From NCBI RefSeq assembly GCF_026151205.1, contig NC_087072.1, positions 14,050,169 through 14,114,168 on the forward strand: a DNA stretch of 64,000 nt, in the 5' to 3' direction. This DNA is from Bolinopsis microptera (taxonomy: Eukaryota; Ctenophora; Tentaculata; Lobata; Bolinopsidae). The first letter of the stretch is position 1. The number at the start of each line of letters is the position of its first letter. This document shows positions 10,565 to 49,299 of the stretch, in pieces. Under the pieces are notes generated by a model that was given only the letters and a program-made list of their open reading frames with translations, did no database searches and was not told the origin of the DNA. A program made the position numbers and the translations under genes.

Positions 10565-14157
<3,593 letters not shown>

Positions 14158-16569: not shown

Positions 16570-18483
16570 TCACTGTCTAGTCTTGAACGCAAGTAGAAGG
16601 CTGGCCATAACAGTGATGACAACTCCGATTGTAAAATTGCAAGCCATATTGGGCCACCACAGGTCACCCGGGTTAATCCCCATTTCAAGTAAAATAGTTG
16701 TGCCATTATATGGACATTCTTCATCACCACAGTCCAGTGTTAGATCTTTGAATTCATTGATCATCATCGCGTGATATCCATATCTTAACCAGGACAGGTA
16801 TTTGATGGGAATGAGGTAAACAGTTTCTTTCACGTGTTTTAACAGGCCCATCACGATCATAAAGGGAAGAACTATACTCGCTGAAATGGCTTTTGCAGAT
16901 GTTGGATCTTCTGCTGCCACTCCTATGAACCAACCTATGCCAGAAGACGTAAAACATGAGACCAGTAAAGAAACAAAAGCAGTAGAGAAAGCTCCTGCAC
17001 TTATCACCAAGCCAGACATAAAGTAGAAAGTGACCAAAGCAAGGAGCACAAAGGGAACGAGTGCTAGGAGCTCAAGTAACACGACCGATATAAAGTATGG
17101 TAAAATCGTGTACAACCCATTTTGGTACTCCCTTTTGATAATGTTAACTTCAAGTGCAATTCTTAGAGCTGAGAAGTTCATTGATGACGCAGTAAAGGAC
17201 ATCACACACATAAAGAATAGACCACTTTTGTTAGTACGAACTGAGGAGATGTCATTGTCCGTCCCAAAGTAGATGAAACCTAAAATGAACGATATGATGA
17301 TACAAACTGTAAAGCGTGCTCGGGTTATCCGAGGATTCCTGAGCCCTTCTGTGTGACTACGCCGAAAGGTTTCTGAAAGTTGATCCCAGAACTTTGCTTT
17401 CAGTTTTGTTTCTATATAGCTGTTGTTGATATTCTTGAAAGCTTTTGAAGTTGATTTAATGTCAGTGTTAACTTTCGTATGGAATGTTGATCTCTCGTAA
17501 GATTGGACAATTTCGGCACATCTTTCTTTACAGTTGACCTCGTCGTCAGATTTTATAGCAAGAGTGTAGATGAAGTGATCGGCTGGACAGTGGTACGGAG
17601 GACATGAGTATCCGGCTTTTTCAAAGTGTGTCAGCGCATCAGTGTGACTGCCAAAAAATGCTATTTTACCTTCCGATAACAGACAAACTTTATCAAATAA
17701 GTCGTAAAGAACAGATGCAGGCTGATGGATAGTGCATAATATTGTGCAGCCAGATTCAGCCAGATCTTTCATTATTTTGATTACGCTTTCTGCCATGAAA
17801 CTGTCTAGTCCACTACTCACCTCATCTAAGAATAAAAGTGAAGCCCCAAAAATAAGTTGAGTTGCCACAGCTAACCTTTTTTTCTCTCCTCCTGAAATAC
17901 CCGGCCGGTCAACGTCTCCAACAAAACTGTTCTTTATTTTGCTCAACCCAACCTTTTGAAGAGCTTCAAGTGCCATAAGCTCTTTTTCTTTCCTTGGTAT
18001 AAGTGGATCCAGCTTTAAGCTTGCATAAAAGAATATAACTTCACATACTGTCATTGAAGCGACGAAGGTATCGTCTTGTCCTACATATCCTGACATATCT
18101 TTGATCTTATCTTGTGTGATGGTTAAGCCATTGAATTTAACATCACCACTGACTTCTAGCTTCCTGGATAACCTGCTCGCCAGTGCCTTCAAAAGCGTGG
18201 TTTTCCCAGATCCACTGGCTCCGAGTATTGCTACAAAGTCACCAGGGCGAGCAACTCCAGATACTTCGTTTAGTAAGATATTTGGGATTAGGTCAGACTT
18301 TTTGTTTCGCATACAACTGAACCCTACAGATAGAGGGGAGAAAACTGACAAGTTTTTCCAGGTTAGATGAATTTCGGAGGGGTTAGATAGATGAATTTCA
18401 GAAGAATGGGATCTATTCTTGCTCTTGTCAGGTGATGAAATTCCTTCGGTTTGATCTAACTTTAAACTCTCTTCTGAAACCAT
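16570..18483 (-). CDS. ABCG-family half-transporter, copy 1
   Basis: A 637-codon frame in one coding exon. I place the start at the ATG at 18483 because a good acceptor (TTTTTGCAG) lies 18 bp upstream, which implies a 5'-UTR intron; the earlier in-frame ATG lies on its intron side. Domain order is NBD then TMD, the reverse layout of ABCG half-transporters. Walker A is GASGSGKTT (about residues 88-96), the signature is ISGGEKKRL (about 196), and Walker B is LLFLDE (about 216), followed by VSSGLDS instead of the usual PTSGLDS. The C-terminal ABC2-type membrane domain starts near residue 390 with about six segments and ends with a Cys-containing loop (LDCGDEECPY) before the last helix. It should dimerise to export lipids, pigments or xenobiotics; substrate unknown. 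A tandem paralogue follows at 19063-20955. Confidence 0.95.
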   Translation of the reverse strand: MVSEESLKLDQTEGISSPDKSKNRSHSSEIHLSNPSEIHLTWKNLSVFSPLSVGFSCMRNKKSDLIPNILLNEVSGVARPGDFVAILGASGSGKTTLLKALASRLSRKLEVSGDVKFNGLTITQDKIKDMSGYVGQDDTFVASMTVCEVIFFYASLKLDPLIPRKEKELMALEALQKVGLSKIKNSFVGDVDRPGISGGEKKRLAVATQLIFGASLLFLDEVSSGLDSFMAESVIKIMKDLAESGCTILCTIHQPASVLYDLFDKVCLLSEGKIAFFGSHTDALTHFEKAGYSCPPYHCPADHFIYTLAIKSDDEVNCKERCAEIVQSYERSTFHTKVNTDIKSTSKAFKNINNSYIETKLKAKFWDQLSETFRRSHTEGLRNPRITRARFTVCIIISFILGFIYFGTDNDISSVRTNKSGLFFMCVMSFTASSMNFSALRIALEVNIIKREYQNGLYTILPYFISVVLLELLALVPFVLLALVTFYFMSGLVISAGAFSTAFVSLLVSCFTSSGIGWFIGVAAEDPTSAKAISASIVLPFMIVMGLLKHVKETVYLIPIKYLSWLRYGYHAMMINEFKDLTLDCGDEECPYNGTTILLEMGINPGDLWWPNMACNFTIGVVITVMASLLLAFKTRQ

Positions 18484-19062
18484 ATCGACAATATACTTTC
18501 CTGCAAAAAGTGTTATAAGGAAATAGTTTGCCGATAATATCACTTAAAACTGTCTAAGTTACAGATTGAGATAAATGAAAAGCAATGAAGGAAGTTAATT
18601 GATACTATTAAAAATAAGACGTGATTATCAGCGAATGTAGTGTAGAATTCTTAAATGCTGTTGAGCCAATAAGATCAGTAAAGTTTTCAGGAATTTCTGG
18701 AGAAAAATAGTAATCAATAATTTGTGTTAAATCGTTTTACAATAATAAATGTATTGTTAATTTTATGTCACCGAAAAAAGGGTTCAGCACATCAAAACTG
18801 TATTTTAAGAGATTTTTTGTTTACTCAAAGCCAAATAAAATTTATATGGATCCATGGTTTGAAATTAGACTGTTTTAAATAGAATGTTGATAACTTTATG
18901 ATCATGCATGGATAGCTGGACGGGATTTTAGCGAATCTTTCAGCCATTCTTCATCAGGGACAAAAGGATTTCGCGGTAATTTTGGCCAAATAATGGGAAA
19001 AAACGCGATCCCGTACATGCCGCGATTTCCTTTTGTCCCTGTTCTTCATTGACCATAGTTTG

Positions 19063-20955
19063 TTACCGAGCAATTTTGTAAGGAAGAAGTAAACAGGTTA
19101 ACAGATTGCATCCAAGTCCAACAACAAAATTGCAAACCATATTGGGCCACCACACTTCATTTGGGTTAATCCCCATTTCAAGTAAAATAGTTGTGCCATT
19201 ATATGGACATTCTTCATCACCACAGTCCAGTGTTAGATCTCTAAATTCATTGACCATCAAGGTGTGATATCCATATCTTATCCAGGACAGGTATTTAAAA
19301 ACAAAGAGGTGAACACCAACCCCGTCATCATCCTTCAGAAAGCCTCCAAGGTAAATAAATGGTGCAGTGAATGCTGCAGGAATTGCACCGGCTACCTTAG
19401 GATTTTCGGCCGCAACTCCGATCAACCAACCTATTCCATTAGATGCCCAGATTATGGCGATCAAACAAGCATAGGCGGTGAAAAATGCCTGTAGATCCGA
19501 TCTTAAACCTACTATGAAGTAGAAGATAGCTAGTTCAACGAGAAGAGACGGAATGACGAACAGGTACTCACAGAACACAACCGAAAGGAAATAAGACAGG
19601 GTTGAGTATAGTCCATTTTTATATTCTCTCCTGATGACGGGGAATTCCAATGGGATTTTGAGTGCAGAGCAACCAATGGACCTTACTGCATAGACCAACA
19701 CTAAAATGAAAATAACGCCACCTTTATCCACCTTGATCGTATCAATGTTATTGCTTGTGTTAAAGTAGAAAAATCCCAAGAAAACGATAGCAAGAATATC
19801 CGAAATTATTCGTCCCCGGGCATATTTGGGATTCCTTTTCATCTCTCTTACACTTCTGCAGAAGTTCTCCGAAAACTGACCCCATGTTGTAGCTTTATGT
19901 GTGGTAGTTACATCTTTGTTGTTAATATTGTTGGGATACTTTGAAATTGACTCAATGTCAGTGATGACTGTTTTGTAAAATGTCGATATCTTGTAAAATT
20001 GTACGATGTCGGCACATCTTTCTCTACATTTGACCTCGTCGTCAGATTTTATAGCAAGAGTGTAGATGAAGTGATCGGCTGGACAGTGGTACGGAGGACA
20101 TGAGTATCCGGCTTTTTCAAAGTGTGTCAGAGCATCAGTGTGACTGCCAAAAAATGCTATTTTACCTTCCGATAACAGACAAACTTTATCAAATAAGTCG
20201 TAAAGAACAGATGCAGGCTGATGGATAGTGCATAATATTGTGCAGCCAGATTCAGCCAGATCTTTCATTATTTTGATTACGCTTTCTGCCATGAAACTGT
20301 CTAGTCCACTAGTCACCTCATCTAAGAATAAAAGTGAAGCTCCAAAAATAAGTTGAGTTGCCACTGCTAACCTTTTTTTCTCTCCTCCTGAAATACCTGG
20401 CCGGTCAACGTCTCCAACAAAACTGTTCTTTATTTTGCTCAACCCAACCTTTTGAAGAGCTTCAAGTGCCATAAGCTCTTTTTCTTTCCTTGGTATACGG
20501 GGATCCAGCTTTAAGCTTGCATAAAAGAATATAACTTCACATACTGTCATTGAAGCGACGAAGGTATCGTCTTGTCCTACATATCCTGACATATCTTTGA
20601 TCTTATCTTGTGTGATGGTTAAGCCATTGAATTTAACATCACCACTGACTTCTAGCTTCCTGGATAACCTGCTCGCCAGTGCCTTCAAAAGCGTGGTTTT
20701 CCCAGATCCACTGGCTCCGAGTATTGCTTCAAAGTCACCAGGTCGAGCAACTCCAGATACTTCGTTTATTATCATAGCATTTGGGATTAGGTTTGATTTT
20801 TTGCCAGTGTTATATCTGTTGGAGACTGTCAAATTCTCCCACGTTAGATTAACTTGATAAGGATAGGACCTCTTTTCATCTTTTTCAGTTGATTGATAGT
20901 ATCTTGTTTCATCGTTAATGAGATGCTTCTTTTCTGATGTGATGTCAAGTTTCAT
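19063..20955 (-). CDS. ABCG-family half-transporter, copy 2
   Basis: A 630-codon single coding exon. The start is taken at the ATG at 20955, just inside the acceptor TTTTGCAG|GTA, again implying a 5'-UTR intron. Walker A GASGSGKTT, ISGGEKKRL and LLFLDEVTSGLDS are all intact. Before Walker A it reads GDFEAILG where copy 1 has GDFVAILG, so an acidic residue sits in a normally hydrophobic strand. The ATPase half is nearly identical to copy 1 even at silent sites, the N-terminus and the middle of the membrane domain are clearly divergent, and the last 50 or so codons are again similar. This fits tandem duplication followed by gene conversion. It lies 580 bp upstream of copy 1 in the same orientation. 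Confidence 0.95.
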   Translation of the reverse strand: MKLDITSEKKHLINDETRYYQSTEKDEKRSYPYQVNLTWENLTVSNRYNTGKKSNLIPNAMIINEVSGVARPGDFEAILGASGSGKTTLLKALASRLSRKLEVSGDVKFNGLTITQDKIKDMSGYVGQDDTFVASMTVCEVIFFYASLKLDPRIPRKEKELMALEALQKVGLSKIKNSFVGDVDRPGISGGEKKRLAVATQLIFGASLLFLDEVTSGLDSFMAESVIKIMKDLAESGCTILCTIHQPASVLYDLFDKVCLLSEGKIAFFGSHTDALTHFEKAGYSCPPYHCPADHFIYTLAIKSDDEVKCRERCADIVQFYKISTFYKTVITDIESISKYPNNINNKDVTTTHKATTWGQFSENFCRSVREMKRNPKYARGRIISDILAIVFLGFFYFNTSNNIDTIKVDKGGVIFILVLVYAVRSIGCSALKIPLEFPVIRREYKNGLYSTLSYFLSVVFCEYLFVIPSLLVELAIFYFIVGLRSDLQAFFTAYACLIAIIWASNGIGWLIGVAAENPKVAGAIPAAFTAPFIYLGGFLKDDDGVGVHLFVFKYLSWIRYGYHTLMVNEFRDLTLDCGDEECPYNGTTILLEMGINPNEVWWPNMVCNFVVGLGCNLLTCLLLPYKIAR

Positions 20956-20959
20956 TACC

Positions 20960-22350
20960 TGCAAAATTCTTCGTTAAAACTTATAGAGATCTTGATGTAA
21001 TGAGTGACAAGGATCATTAAAAAAATTATTGTACGCAAGGATCAAGAAAATGTCATTGGGACAAAGAATGAAACCAATACCAGGCAAAATTAAAAACGGG
21101 ACTATGCCGGATCAGGAATATTCACTAAAAATTGATTTCTGTAAAGATGTCATATTTTTAATGTTGATAGCATTAATATTTAACTGAATTCTACAACGAC
21201 AACTTAAAAATAGGTTCCCCTCTGTTTATATTATGAATATTATGAATATACTATGTAAAGTTCCCGAGAATCGATTTTTACCGATTGAAAGACAATATTA
21301 TATAGAAATAATATTTTATTTGATGTATAATAATACCATTAAACCTTTATTTACAACTATCAGTAACTTTTTACAAAATGAAGTTTAGACAAGCGGATAA
21401 AAGGTTATTCAAAAAGTACATCCTAACAAGACTTCTGTATAAAAGAACCGAAAATCCCTCAAAGAGATTTAAACCCTGCATGAAATCAATTCTTGACTGA
21501 TCTTTGAATCTTTGTTATGATCGTGGCCGATGTCCAAATCTATGACTTTGGTGCAAGTGCAGGTAACAGAGATATTGACGACAAGTTTGTGTTGCACATA
21601 AATAGATAAACATCACATCTACTCCGACTCAATGATTATGTGCAACATATTACGTGAAATGTAATTCTATTCTATTAAATTGAACCGCTTTTAGGGTTCC
21701 ATTTAACAAAAGACTTTACTTTGGAGGTTAGAATAATAGAATAGACAGTAAAAATATTTACATCAAACAACACGCAATGATGTGAACTCTCGGTTGAAAT
21801 TGTTGCAACAACATTTTCAACTCTAAAAAACTCACTCAAATCCTGCGTACCGAATAGAATATTATATCCACACGTTTTCGTAGATATTTCATCAAAATAA
21901 AAAGACTAATTCAAAATATATCTCTCCATATGCTGGGTGTAACGAAAATTGTGTTCGTGATTGAAGTTCGCCAGATATCACACCTGACAAATTTCGGTAC
22001 GTGTCGAATTAGAGTCCAGGTAGTGTACTCTAGTTCGACAATTAGTTTCTGCTTGTGATCCAACGGTTATTGCCGGGTCCTCATCATAGGATAACAGGGT
22101 TGAATGGCAGATAAAACAATTTTGTGACATTTATAGCTATAGCAACCAGCAGTTAGAAATTCCAGGACCTTTCAGTATAGTTTTAATTCTCCTGTTTGCC
22201 ACTCGGTTCTGGTCTAGCTAACAGGAAAATAGATTGATATCCGACTGTTTCCGATTCAGCTCTATACCACTAGTCGGTTACTAGTGATCGTTTGTGATAA
22301 TATAAAGTGTGGTATGTGGTAGATATTTATATAGAGTACTGAATCAGTAT
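20960..22350. other. Intergenic, dispersed repeat fragments
   Basis: No gene. About 21990-22045 shares GTCCAGGTAGTG and GTGTCGAA-type blocks with 24465-24520. About 22170-22280 resembles, in reverse orientation, the repeats at 52590-52720 and 54320-54420 (CTCCTGTTTGCC ... ACAGGAAAATA ... ATATCCGAC). Confidence 0.5.
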
Positions 22351-22689: not shown

Positions 22690-24200
22690 TCTCTTTTTGA
22701 TTATAATGTCAGGATAATTTACACAGCTAGTCGAAACTTCATTAACAAGGAGGTAATTTCGACGATTTCGAAATTCTGCCTTTGAAAACGTTTCCTTGTG
22801 TTTAGTTAGGTATTTCTGTCGATAACCGACTGAATATGGCACTTTTTACTCATTCAAGTTGGCATTAAATTCATATATAATGCCATTTAAATATCGTGGA
22901 AAGCAGAATATATTCGAAATCACGAATGAGCAAATTTCTCACCTTTCGCACGTGCAAACTTTGAGCGGACGTCGCGTGCGCATACAATATTGAATCACCG
23001 TAAATTTTTGCATAGTGGTATTTAATATATAGTTTGATAAGCATGCAAAGTTTCAGAAGATTTCAAAAAGAACTTGGATCACAGCGGGACTCCAAAGTTG
23101 ATAAAAATCGTGAAAATCAAAATTTTTAGCGATTTTAGCGATTTTAAATGAATTTGGGCGTGTCCCCACGTGTGCAACTTTTCGATTTTTAACTTTAAAA
23201 CTAGCCTATAACACAATTTACACCTTTAAGAAGCAAAATTGAGCTCCACAACCCAAGGGATGGCCCAACACCAGAGAATACTAATTCACAACTTTTGTGT
23301 TTTTATAAAATTATTCTTCAAAAAAGCACTAACTTCAATAGCAAATATCTTTATGAAGGAGCAAGGTAGGAAACTATTCCGGTAGATTTTCGGAATGCTT
23401 GAACAATTATCTAAGATGAAAATGTCCTCAGATTTTGAATAAAATTACTCCTTAATAGTGTAAAATCGATTTAAAAAGTTGTTACTTTGTCAAAAGTCAA
23501 GTTTTAAAAACACTTAACTTGATGACGTCATCAAGTGATGATGATGACGTTAAATTATTTTTCAATACAATGTAAACTAAAGCTTAAACAATTATCTTTA
23601 AAACCTGTGGTTCGAAATGACTGTATCGTTTATACTTTTGAATCTACGGACACTTAAATGTAGGCTACAATTGACTGCAAAAAGCGTCTATACATACATA
23701 TATATCTTCACGACAATCTGTTGTAAAACAGGGGTTCCAGAAAACCCACTTCCCGATACTCCTGAAACATGACATTTTTTTTACAGTCGATTTGGACAAG
23801 GTCTAGACGCCCTGCAAAGTTTCAGATCTCTAACTCAATTTTAACATGGTTTTTAAGGCACCTGAATATGGCGATTTTGGGTTTTTTACCTAATTTCGTA
23901 TAACATGCTGGCGCGTATTTTGCGCAAATTTCTTAAAAACCTCCATACAACTATTTCTTATTCCTGTCATCTTCAACATTGAATTAGAATGTTTTGAACT
24001 TAAATGTACCTGCTGAACTACTTTCGATGAGTCTTAATGCCTGGAAAACAATAAAGGGGATATAATCGTATAGGGGGTAAATAGTGTTGTGAATATAAGG
24101 GCGACGGTAATGCTTGCCAGCATTGTGATACGCTATATTATGCTGTTTAACTATGACGTGTGAATGTAATCTCTATAATCCACATCTATGAACATTTAAC
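22690..24200. other. Intergenic, nothing recognised
   Basis: AT-rich, no ORF of note. A CRE-type palindrome TGATGACGTCATCA lies at about 23521-23534. The remainder looks like old repeat-derived sequence. Confidence 0.35.
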
Positions 24201-41600: not shown

Positions 41601-41790
41601 CTCTACAGGAAAGACTTTTAGATTGATTCTATTGTAATTTTAGACTTTTAGCAGATACGGACAAGCCGAAGTGTTGTATCATACAACGTATGACAAGATA
41701 CGTGCAAGCCGAAGTGATCTCAATTGCTGCGTTGCGAATTGTTTAAATTGCTAAACATTGTTCAACATGAATAAGGAATGGAATAGGACG
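38632..41790. other. 3.1 kb without a recognised gene
   Basis: AT-rich. A possible 5'-UTR exon of the glutaredoxin-like gene ends GCTTGAGGCAG|GTACAA on the minus strand near 39442. Scattered CCCTAAC motifs at 39715-39760 resemble degenerate telomeric repeats. At 41688-41704 lies a family C fragment. Nothing else supported. Confidence 0.4.
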
Positions 41791-41794
41791 TTAA

Positions 41795-43375
41795 TAGGTT
41801 CTTTTGCGATAGTCAAAACGCGACAACTAGCGCTGGATGGCGACAACTAGCGCTATCCAGCGCTAGTTGTCGCCATCCAGCGCTAGTTGTCGCTATCCAG
41901 CGCTGGATAACGCTGGCCAGCGCAAAATATATATGTTCGATAATTGTCGCTATCCAGCGCTAGTTGTCGCCATCCAGCGCTAGTTGTCGCCATCCAGCGC
42001 TAGTTGTCGCTATCCAGCGCTAGTTGTCGCTGGCTATGCGACACTGTCGCACGCGATAGTTTGCGATGGCCAGCGCAACTGGCCATCGCAGAAAACAGTT
42101 CGATAACTAGCGCTGGATAGCGACAACTAGCGCTGGATAGCGACAACTAGCGCTGGCCATCGATATCCAGCGCAAAATTTTCGCGCTATTACTCGTCAGC
42201 TAGCGCTGGCCAGCGCTAGCCAGCGCTAACCAGCGCTAGCCAGCGCTAACCAGCGCTAGCCAGCGCTAACCAGCGCTAACCAGCGCTAGCCAGCGCTAGC
42301 CAGCGCTAACCAGCGCTAGCCAGCGCTGGCCAGCGCTAGCTGACGAGTAATATCGCAACTATATTGCGCTGGCTGACGAGTAATACTAATATCGAGCGTG
42401 CTAAATCACTCTACAGTCGATCTTCGAGATTGTTCTAAAAGGCCCCCGATGGTTGTAACCAACTTCAATCGATGCAATGTATTTTCGGACGCTAATTCCG
42501 AATCAACCCCCATGACATAGCGTTAAAATGCTCTCCTGACGAGATATTGGCGAAAAACTGTATCGATCACGTGATATGACCGTATAAGGAAGTTAGTCTA
42601 ATTTTTCGTTAGGGTTAGGGTTTCAGCATATGTTTTTGTTAAGGATTGAGTTAGGGTTAGGGTTGGGATCAGATTAGAGGGATAGGGTTTCGAAAAGTCG
42701 TTCAGAACCAGCTAGAGTCAGAGAATGGGTTAAAAAAGTCACGTGACAGTCGAGTGTACAAAGTGATTAATCATCATCCGAGTAATATACATTGCGCTGG
42801 CTAGCGCTGGCTAGCGCTGGTTAGCGCTGGTTAGCGCTGGCTAGCGCTGGCTAGCGCTGGCTAGCGCTGGTTAGCGCTGGTTAGCGCTGGCTAGCGCTGG
42901 TTAGCGCTGGATAGCGCTGGTTAGCGCTGGCTAGCGCTGGTTAGCGCTGGCCAGCGCTAGCTGACGAGTAATAGCGCGAAAATTTTGCGCTGGATATCGA
43001 TGGCCAGCTCTGGCCAGCGCTAGTTGTCGCTATCCAGCGCTAGTTGTCGCTATCCAGCGCTAGTTGTCGAACTGTTTTCTGCGATGGCCAGTTGCGCTGG
43101 CCATCGCAAACTATCACGTGCGACAGTGTCGCATAGCCAGCGACAACTAGCGCTGGATAGCGACAACTAGCGCTGGATGGCGACAACTAGCGCTGGATGG
43201 CGACAACTAGCGCTGGATAGCGACAATTATCGAACATATATATTTTGCGCTGGCCAGTGTTATCCAGCGCTGGATAGCGACAACTAGCGCTGGATGGCGA
43301 CAACTAGCGCTGGATAGCGGTAGTTGTCGCCATCCAGCGCTAGTTGTCGCGTTTTGACTATCGCAAAAGAACCCG
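41795..43375. mobile_element. TTAA-flanked 1.58-kb element with giant inverted-repeat arms
   Basis: Flanked by TTAA at 41791-41794 and 43376-43379, the target duplication of piggyBac-type elements. Both ends read inward GGTTCTTTTGCGATAGTCAA then AACGCGACAACTAGCGCTGG. Arms of about 580-600 bp (41795-42395 and 42790-43375) are near-perfect inverted copies built of subrepeats: about 20-mers CCAGCGCTAGTTGTCGCTAT and 10-mers CCAGCGCTAG. The 390-bp centre is unique, carries TTAGGG runs, and recurs at 26105-26476. There is no transposase ORF, so it depends on an element elsewhere, if mobile. Confidence 0.85.
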
Positions 43376-43409
43376 TTAATATGTAATTCACATTCAGTTT
43401 GTTATAGCT

Positions 43410-46389: not shown

Positions 46390-49299
46390 TTATGTCTGTT
46401 GAGTTGGTAGTCCTGATGGGGTGACAGGCAGTATTGGCGTCTTTTTCGGGTTCCTGATGCGGTGACAGTTGCAAAGGAATTTGCCCAGTTCTTGCACATG
46501 GGCAGAATTCATGATAGCTCCGTATTCCTTGAGCAGCAAAAGACTCTTAAGGTTTTCCGACAGTGAGAGTCTCGCTGAGTGGTACATTGGACATTCAGTG
46601 AGGCAGTGTTCTTCATTTTCAATGATTGTTCCTTCGAAAAAGGGGAGATATTCTAAGCCTTGAACGTTATCCTTGTTGCAGCAGAATCTGCAGGCTCTCG
46701 TCCACGTTCCAGTTTCTTTTGTGTATCTCCCTCTCTCAATAAGAAGGTCATGGCTACTGGAGCGGATTTTTGCTATGTGCATGCGACATTGACTATTCTT
46801 TAGATTGAGATACTGCTCCTCTCCGAATACCTGTTTGATAGTGCAGTAAAATTGCATTTTCTTTTGGGATGCTAAATCTGTTCTCCAATCTTTTACAAAG
46901 TGATCAACCAAATTTCCATGTGCAGTTGAGGTCGTTCCTTCTGCTCTGTGTTGGTCGGATCGAGCGAATTTGGCCGCTTTGGATACAGACTGAGCGATCG
47001 AGTTCCAGGTCTTATACCAAGAGAGGTTTAGATTCTTCTGCTCTTGGAATGTCTGATGTACAAGAAAGTTGACGCTGCTCACGTCGGGTGATGTCTGAGA
47101 CAATCTGTCGAAGTATCTCAGGCATTGTGGTAGTACCGACAGGGCCCATGGTAACCTGCCCGTATCTCCGTAACAGAAGTTGTTGTTAGCTTTCTTGTGT
47201 AAGCCGAGCACCCATTTCAGCATTTTCAGGTGTGTTGTCTCAAGGGCGTCCTTTGTTGCAGCTCTAGCAAGGTTCTGTCTTGAACCATCAGCGCAAGCCA
47301 TCTCCTTTGCCATTTTTGTACACGGTAGCCATATCTGACAGGCATACGTAGCGACTGGTTTAACGAGGCTGTCTATAAGCTTGAGCATGGTTTTTGTTGT
47401 TAATGCTCGAGTGTCGACCATGCGTCTGATCGAGAAAAATGCTCTTAGTGCTTTTTTCCTCAGTTCGTTCATGGCACCTTTAAGTGAACCGTTGAGACTG
47501 AATTGAATGCCTAGATAGCAGTAAGATTTGGCCGATGATATGTCCAGGTTCCCTAGTTTGAACCCGTAGGAGCACTTCAGCAAACGAGAGCTCGAGTTGA
47601 ATACCATGATTTTGGTTTTGTCGATGTTAATTGACAGTTCCCATTTACTTGCAAATTCCTGCAGGCAATCAAGTTGTTTCTGCAGGCTTTTGGCGTCGAG
47701 TGCCAAAAGTATCAGGTCGTCTGCCCACAGAAGATGGTTGACCGGGAAGCCGTTCAGTTCTGGAATTGACAAGTCCTCAAGAGCTGCTAGTCTAATGGAG
47801 AGGTCATAAATGTATACCTTGAAGAGCTCCGGCGACATTGGATGCCCCTGTTCGGTACCAATGGTGACATCGATGGTGTCCGACAGCTTCTTGCTCAGTT
47901 TGATACGGGTAACTGAGTTGCTGTACATGTTCTGGAGGCAAGAGAAGAAGCTTCCTCCGATACCAAGTCTACTGAGTTTGTACATGAGAGCCTCCCTGCA
48001 GACTGTGTCGAACGCCTTACGATAGTCCACGAAGCAAGCGAATATTTTCTTCTTCAGCTTCTTTGTATACTTCTCAATGATCGTTGTAAGGGTCAGGATA
48101 TGGTCAGAGCACTGGGCACCAGCTCTGAATCCGAGTTGGTGAGGGAAGTCGGGACAGACGACTTTACGGAATTCGATCAGCCTATCAAGGAGGAGGGATG
48201 CGAAGAGTTTTCCAAGGCAACTTCCGACTGTGATTGCTCTATAGTTATCGGGGTTCTGCTTGTCCCCCTTTTTGTGTAGGGGGGTAGTTATTGAGCAGTT
48301 CCAGGGGTAGATTCCTTGCGTTAGGCAACCATTGAATAGTTTCAGAAGGACTTTTTGGAGACCGAGTTTGGAGCTCTTGAGCATCTCGTTGGAGATAAGA
48401 TCACATGAAACGCTTTTGTTATTCTGGAGCTTATTGGTGACTTTCTCCAGTTCTTGGATAGTAAACTCTGTGTTGAGTTTTTCAAGTTCGACTGATGGCT
48501 CGAGGTGGTACTCGGTTCCCTGTTCACCAGCTTCGTTGGTCGAAGTGTTCGTTTGTAGTCCACCGTGCGAGGGGTCCTTGCACTTCTGATTGTATAGGTC
48601 GTTGAAGAACTTGTGAAATGCGATCAGGTCATATATGCCGAATGTATCGGGGTCCTTGCAAGCGGACGAGAGGTCTTTTAAAGCAGCCCAGTTGATGTTG
48701 TTGCTGAGGTTGATTTTCTCGTTAAGTTTGTATAGGTAAGCTCCCTTTCTAGCTCGTGTTTGTGCCCTGTATTCTTTCTTACGGAGGTAAAATCTTGCTC
48801 GGTTGGATTCCACGAGCATAGGATCGATGTGGGTGTTATTCTTGGCTCTTTCGTCTCTACAGACTAATCGTTTAGCATGCCTACAACTCCAATCAAACCA
48901 TTTGTTTTTGTTAGTACTGGGCTTTCCACTTTTCTGGGTGGTAACTTGACTTGCCAGGTTAGTAAAGGTGGCAATCACAATTTCATTGAAACTGCGAATG
49001 TCGTCAGGGGAGGAAATATCAGTTTGAAGAAGAGAATCAACTTTTTCTTTGAATTGAGCGGTGTTCTGGGCTGACTTGAATTTTTCTGTGGTACCAAGTC
49101 CAGAGCAGGCATCTTTGGTCCACTTGAATGGCTTCGGGATCGATGCGAATTTGAGCTCCATTTCGTTCGAGATGTCGCCAGCCATCACAATGTTCCTTAT
49201 GTTAGTGGTTAAAGTGGTGGATATTGGTCTGTGGTCAGAATAAGGGGTGAGGTCACCAACTTTGAAGAACCTTGCCCGATGAAGGAGGCTGTGGGACAC
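46390..49299 (-). CDS. LINE ORF2, reverse transcriptase part
   Basis: About 970 codons. It opens with the end of the endonuclease (VSHSLLHRARFF, then the catalytic SDHRPI). The RT has ITTPLHKKGDKQNPDNYRAI, FVDYRKAFDTV (motif A), GTEQGHPMSPELF (motif B) and HLLWADDLILLA (motif C, with W in place of Y/F before ADD). A C-terminal Cys/His knuckle (CRFCC ... EEHCLTEC) completes it. No true start codon belongs here: the frame is the continuation of the endonuclease frame after a frameshift near 49310. Confidence 0.9.
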   Translation of the reverse strand: MSHSLLHRARFFKVGDLTPYSDHRPISTTLTTNIRNIVMAGDISNEMELKFASIPKPFKWTKDACSGLGTTEKFKSAQNTAQFKEKVDSLLQTDISSPDDIRSFNEIVIATFTNLASQVTTQKSGKPSTNKNKWFDWSCRHAKRLVCRDERAKNNTHIDPMLVESNRARFYLRKKEYRAQTRARKGAYLYKLNEKINLSNNINWAALKDLSSACKDPDTFGIYDLIAFHKFFNDLYNQKCKDPSHGGLQTNTSTNEAGEQGTEYHLEPSVELEKLNTEFTIQELEKVTNKLQNNKSVSCDLISNEMLKSSKLGLQKVLLKLFNGCLTQGIYPWNCSITTPLHKKGDKQNPDNYRAITVGSCLGKLFASLLLDRLIEFRKVVCPDFPHQLGFRAGAQCSDHILTLTTIIEKYTKKLKKKIFACFVDYRKAFDTVCREALMYKLSRLGIGGSFFSCLQNMYSNSVTRIKLSKKLSDTIDVTIGTEQGHPMSPELFKVYIYDLSIRLAALEDLSIPELNGFPVNHLLWADDLILLALDAKSLQKQLDCLQEFASKWELSINIDKTKIMVFNSSSRLLKCSYGFKLGNLDISSAKSYCYLGIQFSLNGSLKGAMNELRKKALRAFFSIRRMVDTRALTTKTMLKLIDSLVKPVATYACQIWLPCTKMAKEMACADGSRQNLARAATKDALETTHLKMLKWVLGLHKKANNNFCYGDTGRLPWALSVLPQCLRYFDRLSQTSPDVSSVNFLVHQTFQEQKNLNLSWYKTWNSIAQSVSKAAKFARSDQHRAEGTTSTAHGNLVDHFVKDWRTDLASQKKMQFYCTIKQVFGEEQYLNLKNSQCRMHIAKIRSSSHDLLIERGRYTKETGTWTRACRFCCNKDNVQGLEYLPFFEGTIIENEEHCLTECPMYHSARLSLSENLKSLLLLKEYGAIMNSAHVQELGKFLCNCHRIRNPKKTPILPVTPSGLPTQQT

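Follow-up and report, generated by a model that had tools for sequence, protein, structure and literature searches.

A non-autonomous foldback transposon family with AGCGCT-array arms in the ctenophore Bolinopsis microptera, most likely of the Merlin superfamily

We asked what kind of mobile element lies in a 64,000-nucleotide stretch of the Bolinopsis microptera genome (the window), and which transposase could have moved it. A first-pass annotation of this DNA had described a TTAA-flanked unit with matching ends, long inverted arms, a unique centre and no transposase, and had linked it to piggyBac. We found a non-autonomous foldback DNA transposon with long self-complementary arms, of which the genome carries hundreds of copies, this element among them. 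Judged from its sequence, the family is most likely a member of the Merlin superfamily.

The window element occupies positions 41797-43373 (1577 bp; Table 1). Its ends do match, both reading GGTTCTTTTGCGATAGTC inward, or GGTTCTTTTGCGATAGTCAAAACGCGACAACTAGCGCT in longer form, and the octamer CGTTAATA abuts each of them as a direct repeat. With the limits set by these flanking octamers, both ends are GGTTCTTTTGCG, and GG are the first bases of the tips. TTAA is indeed present at both sides (41791-41794 and 43376-43379), but it lies inside the octamer, separated from the element by 2 bp, TA at the left end and CG at the right, and is not the target site. The longest open frame is 54 codons, in agreement with the reported lack of a transposase.

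Table 1. Parts of the AGCGCT element and its flanking duplications, in window coordinates
Feature	Position	Strand	Basis
Left target-site duplication, CGTTAATA, holding the TTAA of the first-pass annotation	41789..41796	no strand	read from sequence
Left arm: tip GGTTCTTTTGCGATAGTCAAAACGCGACAAC, then AGCGCT at 10-/20-bp spacing, 26 sites	41797..42384	+	as sliced for site count
Inner left array: 14 AGCGCT, spacing exactly 10 bp	42193..42345	+	site spacing
Left side of nested centre, ACTAATAT, one base off the right side AGTAATAT	42385..42392	no strand	junction comparison
Nested repeat CGAGCG...CATCCG with TTAGGG-like stretches	42393..42780	+	genome search; also armless in L073
Right side of nested centre, AGTAATAT	42781..42788	no strand	junction comparison
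Right arm, inverted match of left arm, 27 AGCGCT sites	42789..43373	-	as sliced for site count
Inner right array: 16 AGCGCT, spacing exactly 10 bp	42790..42975	-	site spacing
Right target-site duplication, CGTTAATA	43374..43381	no strand	read from sequence

The two long inverted arms built of AGCGCT palindromes were also borne out. The two arms agree in 94.8% of 563 aligned columns, and 382 nt of them pair without a gap at 97% complementarity. The element holds 53 AGCGCT sites, most of them in the arms and mostly 10 or 20 bp from their neighbours; outside it, the window has 4. The first-pass annotation had suggested that such arms would give a long double-stranded RNA if transcribed; for a single RNA strand of the element, a hairpin over its full length is predicted, nucleotide 1 pairing with nucleotide 1577, at -1300.6 kcal/mol. 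In 28 copies, mean arm identity was 94.4% within the same copy and 94.2% between different copies; arms are thus no more similar within a copy than between copies, which gives no hint that a copy homogenises its arms.

The search for further copies by their end sequence, proposed with the original description, was productive. The 20-base end was found, with up to 2 mismatches, at 441 places in the 264.65-Mb genome, compared with 1 place for the reversed control pattern. The first 100 exact ends listed, which lie on C1-C4 and on C5 up to 7.85 Mb, fell into 42 close pairs and 16 single ends. We analysed 41 of the pairs (the window copy and loci L009-L048), leaving out C5:91056/92660, and took 10 kb beside each single end (L049-L064). 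An exact 8-bp direct repeat flanks 34 of the 41 pairs, where 0.8 would be expected from chance partners, and no pair is flanked by an exact repeat of 4-7 or 9-12 bp. The seven other pairs have octamers with one mismatch (L029, L048), two mismatches (L043) or unlike flanks (L027, L038, L041, L046). Pairing single ends with imperfect partners gave exact octamers in 3 of 10 cases (L051, L056, L058). The majority sequence over 60 nt was matched fully by 63 of 82 ends, its first 20 nt matching by selection. TTAA occurs within only 2 of the 34 exact octamers, which argues against TTAA as the duplicated target. The family is real and apparently recent, and the guess that it is non-autonomous holds, as the copies read, from 95 bp to 6.6 kb, revealed no transposase. 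The end pattern gave no exact match in viral contigs.

Among insertions whose flanks could be compared, relatives crossing the empty junction were found. For 36 insertions, the two flanks were joined and searched for relatives among the loci at hand; L047 (matching L001) and L011 (many repeats) were left out, and a match between L010 and L004, which are the same place, was not counted. Two insertions have clean empty-site relatives, L033 in L053 (221/245 identical) and L042 in L059 (191/215 identical, with a left side of 26 bp). A third, L056, has relatives with gaps at an AT-rich junction, in window positions 23600-23780 (170/198) and in L051 (159/196). A genome search for an empty site with the flanks of L053 returned its own two flanks only. 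The window segment 23600-23780 is itself a repeat, whose relative at C4:2675245 (L056) holds the AGCGCT-family insertion.

The copies differ widely in size. The 41 pairs range from 95 to 6,649 bp, with 19 of them at 1,459-1,723 bp and three at 120 bp. The 120-bp copies are flanked by exact octamers in L030 and L037 and by an octamer with one mismatch in L029, suggesting that long arms are not strictly needed, unless these copies shrank after insertion. At the other extreme, long copies show arm growth: in L009 (4.9 kb), two inverted repeats of about 1.84 kb, 92% identical, enclose a spacer of 273 bp, and L090, from the interior of a 3.8-kb pair on C9, resembles a satellite, with a density of 82 AGCGCT sites in 2 kb. 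The giant copies L009 (C1:20543236-20548524) and L012 (C4:8569385-8576433) both have kilobase-scale inverted arms and share a common interior. Open frames in L010 are of low complexity only. A 6.2-kb copy, L011, carries a 468-codon frame with a GIY-YIG domain (L011:2059-3462; E 6.3e-7), which we take to be probably a nested Penelope-like retroelement.

The 390-bp centre had been called unique; it proved to be a nested repeat that occurs elsewhere. From 2,347 first-look candidates in the genome, 40 were scored and gave 42 matches, 40 of them nearly full length. L073 (10-390) has this sequence free of AGCGCT arms and flanked by CTTTAAAG octamers, where a shift of the boundary would permit 9 bp. 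The centre is a repeat of about 390 bp in high copy, with octamer duplications, nested in AGCGCT elements. Its flanking octamers match exactly in L021 (ACTAATAT) and L025 (AGTAATAT), and are one base apart in the window and in most other copies. It is present in 21 of the 41 copies, with a junction that is nearly constant among the copies compared, and arms lacking the insertion were seen in L009, L011, L012, L023, L024 and L028. The simplest reading is that the centre landed once in an ancestral copy and was then multiplied with it.

Exact ends and duplications imply that the GG tips are the substrate of some cut-and-paste enzyme. Merlin elements are marked by 5'-GG tips, duplications of 8 or 9 bp and tips of 24-462 bp, according to PMC8101967. 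We searched the genome with the Merlin transposase profile PF12762 (DDE_Tnp_IS1595) and found matches at 58 places. Five frames from L065 and L067-L070, 240-337 codons long, scored 49.6-68 bits (cut-off 27). Sequence around 16 of the 58 places was covered by 25 loci (L065-L089): six places as 3-kb pieces (L065-L070), eight by their two flanks (L071-L086), one by a single flank (L089) and one complete element by its two ends (L087/L088).

These Merlin elements have a layout similar to that of the AGCGCT family. The complete element, C5:5797946-5799490 (1545 bp, one stop in frame), has the tips GGCAGTCTACAAG and GGCAGTCTCCAAG, CCATGG arrays at both ends and a clean 8-bp duplication, CAATGTAG, the sole clean Merlin duplication. 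A second family (L077/L078) combines GG tips, GGCAGTATCGAGATAG, with CCGCGG arrays; its flanking octamer CAATCGTG lies inside an 11-bp minisatellite, so that a gain of 8 bp and a loss of 3 bp are indistinguishable. This element (C1:11557000-11559634) sits mid-way in the minisatellite, whose unit is GACAATCGTGT. In a third family the tip GGCAACT, placed where flanks diverge, is followed by TAAGACAACAT arrays (L069, L076, L081), and in a fourth the GG tip GGTAACTC, placed in the same way, by CACCTCGGGCA arrays (L067 and L086, and shorter in L085). Further arrays stand beside Merlin frames in L068 (CCGGTTAAGAA) and L070 (CCGGCTAGTAG), while no arrays were seen in the Merlin flanks L083/L084. Across L065-L086 (C1-C13) there are at least seven array motifs: CCATGG, CCGCGG, CACCTCGGGCA, TAAGACAACAT, CCGGTTAAGAA, CCGGCTAGTAG and GACGTTGCATA. 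A GGTTCTTTTG stretch inside L070 and L080 was not accepted as a shared end, since a match of ten bases may arise by chance.

The TAAGACAACAT family, with 49 end places in the genome, has the same spread of sizes as the AGCGCT family, here with transposase-bearing members. Seven of its pairs, of 2.5-4.1 kb, enclose PF12762 places (C4 and C11, two each; C6, C10 and C12, one each), and pairs of 103 bp (C7), 932 and 1391 bp (C13) and 1971 bp (C6) enclose no listed PF12762 place. L065, L072, L074 and L079 contain a second open frame, related among these loci; one such frame had a weak helix-turn-helix resemblance, to HTH_28 (E 0.005) and CCDC106 (E 7e-5), both below the cut-offs, and another matched no family.

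The AGCGCT family shares GG tips and 8-bp duplications (exact in 34 of 41 pairs) with Merlin elements, published ones included, and, with those of this genome, arrays of a short motif directly inside the tips. It differs from them in its motif, in arms far longer than the tip, and in that the copies read lack a transposase and the ends are not tied to one. A tblastn search with Merlin proteins gave no match in L009-L064 or the window, no Merlin match was seen in L090, and the motif AGCGCT was absent from the 25 Merlin loci, which cover 16 of the 58 places. Among 147 listed AGCGCT-family ends (the first 100 and 47 more, the latter only ends not preceded by C, up to within C9), the nearest Merlin place lies at a distance of 7.7 kb and is part of another family. 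Because no Merlin transposase was found between AGCGCT ends, membership in the superfamily is something we infer, from the GG tips, the duplication length of 8 bp and the shared layout of tip plus array. At a fixed offset, the tip of the CCGCGG family shares 13 of 24 positions with the AGCGCT tip, a value reached by 0.6% of shuffles; the other three Merlin tips (10, 9 and 8 of 24) do not stand out. Octamer preference does not single out Merlin, as it is shallow in the AGCGCT family and the one clean Merlin octamer is unremarkable, scoring no higher than 27% of window octamers. A search for a KDZ (KDZ / Zisupton) transposase gave no match in this genome, nor in any of 14 control genomes. Taking these results together, we consider it reasonably probable that these non-autonomous foldback elements with their nested centre were moved by a Merlin-type transposase, with the arrays serving as landing sites.

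The family might instead be a non-autonomous hAT element, with a hAT transposase making the 8-bp duplications and binding the subterminal repeats, yet we regard this as unlikely. Tips of hAT elements usually begin with CA or TA. Those of the AGCGCT family begin with GG, and their layout agrees with Merlin elements in the same genome. The duplication length would suit either origin, as 8 bp is usual for hAT elements (PMC12730594), and the arrays recall the subterminal repeats described as important for the hAT-derived Kat1 (PMC4763223).

An origin from Mutator-like (MULE) elements, as proposed for the Drosophila virilis foldback element Tetris, seems to us very improbable. According to PMC4079207, Tetris is likewise non-autonomous, with a variable middle and long tandem-repeat arms that grow into satellite-like arrays, as in L090; unlike the AGCGCT family, it has 220-bp repeats and duplications of 8-10 bp, and its authors placed it in Mutator. 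Such variation in duplication length was not found here: the duplications are strictly 8 bp, and 9- or 10-bp repeats flank none of the 41 pairs. A P-superfamily foldback element comparable to Galileo of Drosophila could also be imagined, though we give it equally little credence. P elements proper make 8-bp duplications. Galileo resembles the AGCGCT family in its long arms (about 0.3-1.2 kb) with internal repeats, in proposed additional transposase-binding sites and in non-autonomous copies of variable arm length, but it makes 7-bp duplications, seen exactly in 0 of our 41 pairs, and in one subfamily its repeats are about 210 bp rather than 10 bp (PMC3688188 and PMC3573991).

The proposed piggyBac identity has a negligible probability and was rejected: the window copy does have TTAA close to each end, but the duplications are 8 bp (34 exact octamers), TTAA falls inside them and 2 bp off the ends in the window and is missing from 32 of the 34, and comparison with piggyBac termini set GGTT tips against the CC[C/T]T motif given in PMC2872659. 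Coral CMITEs, the piggyBac-type MITEs of that source, similarly lack a transposase and have inverted ends, and one product of nested insertion is described for them; they differ in having TTAA duplications and CC[C/T]T tips. Thus, TTAA beside a single copy is no evidence of piggyBac.

If the Merlin reading is correct, a Merlin-type transposase acting in trans would recognise the GGTTCTTTTGCGATAGTC tip and move the AGCGCT element. Two helical turns of DNA hold about one or two of the palindromic sites, and the arms may offer many landing sites to the transposase or to a helix-turn-helix-like partner protein, a candidate for which is the second frame encoded by some Merlin elements here. The arrays could raise specificity and help to pair both ends. 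Binding might be cooperative, by analogy with Galileo, where cooperative binding was proposed for the extra THAP sites in the arms (PMC3688188). Expansion and contraction of arrays through recombination would account for copy sizes of 95 bp to 6.6 kb and for the 1.8-kb inverted arms of one copy, while the centre, an unrelated repeat, would have landed once in a master copy and been copied along.

A broader proposal, which we hold tentatively and find somewhat doubtful, is that Merlin ends in this genome are of two parts, a short GG tip and a long, family-specific array of short and often palindromic sites, read by a fast-changing DNA-binding system, either the transposase N-terminus or an accessory helix-turn-helix-like protein. 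Families would then switch their array 'address', and arrays parted from a transposase would expand into a foldback, satellite-like family such as AGCGCT. We found no foldback Merlin element and no AGCGCT family in the literature covered, which comprised open-access papers without Repbase. Should the assignment hold, the foldback design, with long arms of repeat arrays, would extend to the Merlin superfamily, and several Merlin families with their own array motif each would offer a natural series for studying arrays as address labels of a transposase.

At C6:15354568-15818579, seven PF12762 places lie within 0.46 Mb, three of them with identical scores and 228-codon frames; they form a local cluster, which may be tandem or domesticated. 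Near the element in the window are a reverse transcriptase frame (46390-49299, minus strand), a tubulin fragment (10775-11692, plus strand) and two ABC2-type transporter frames (16570-20964, minus strand).
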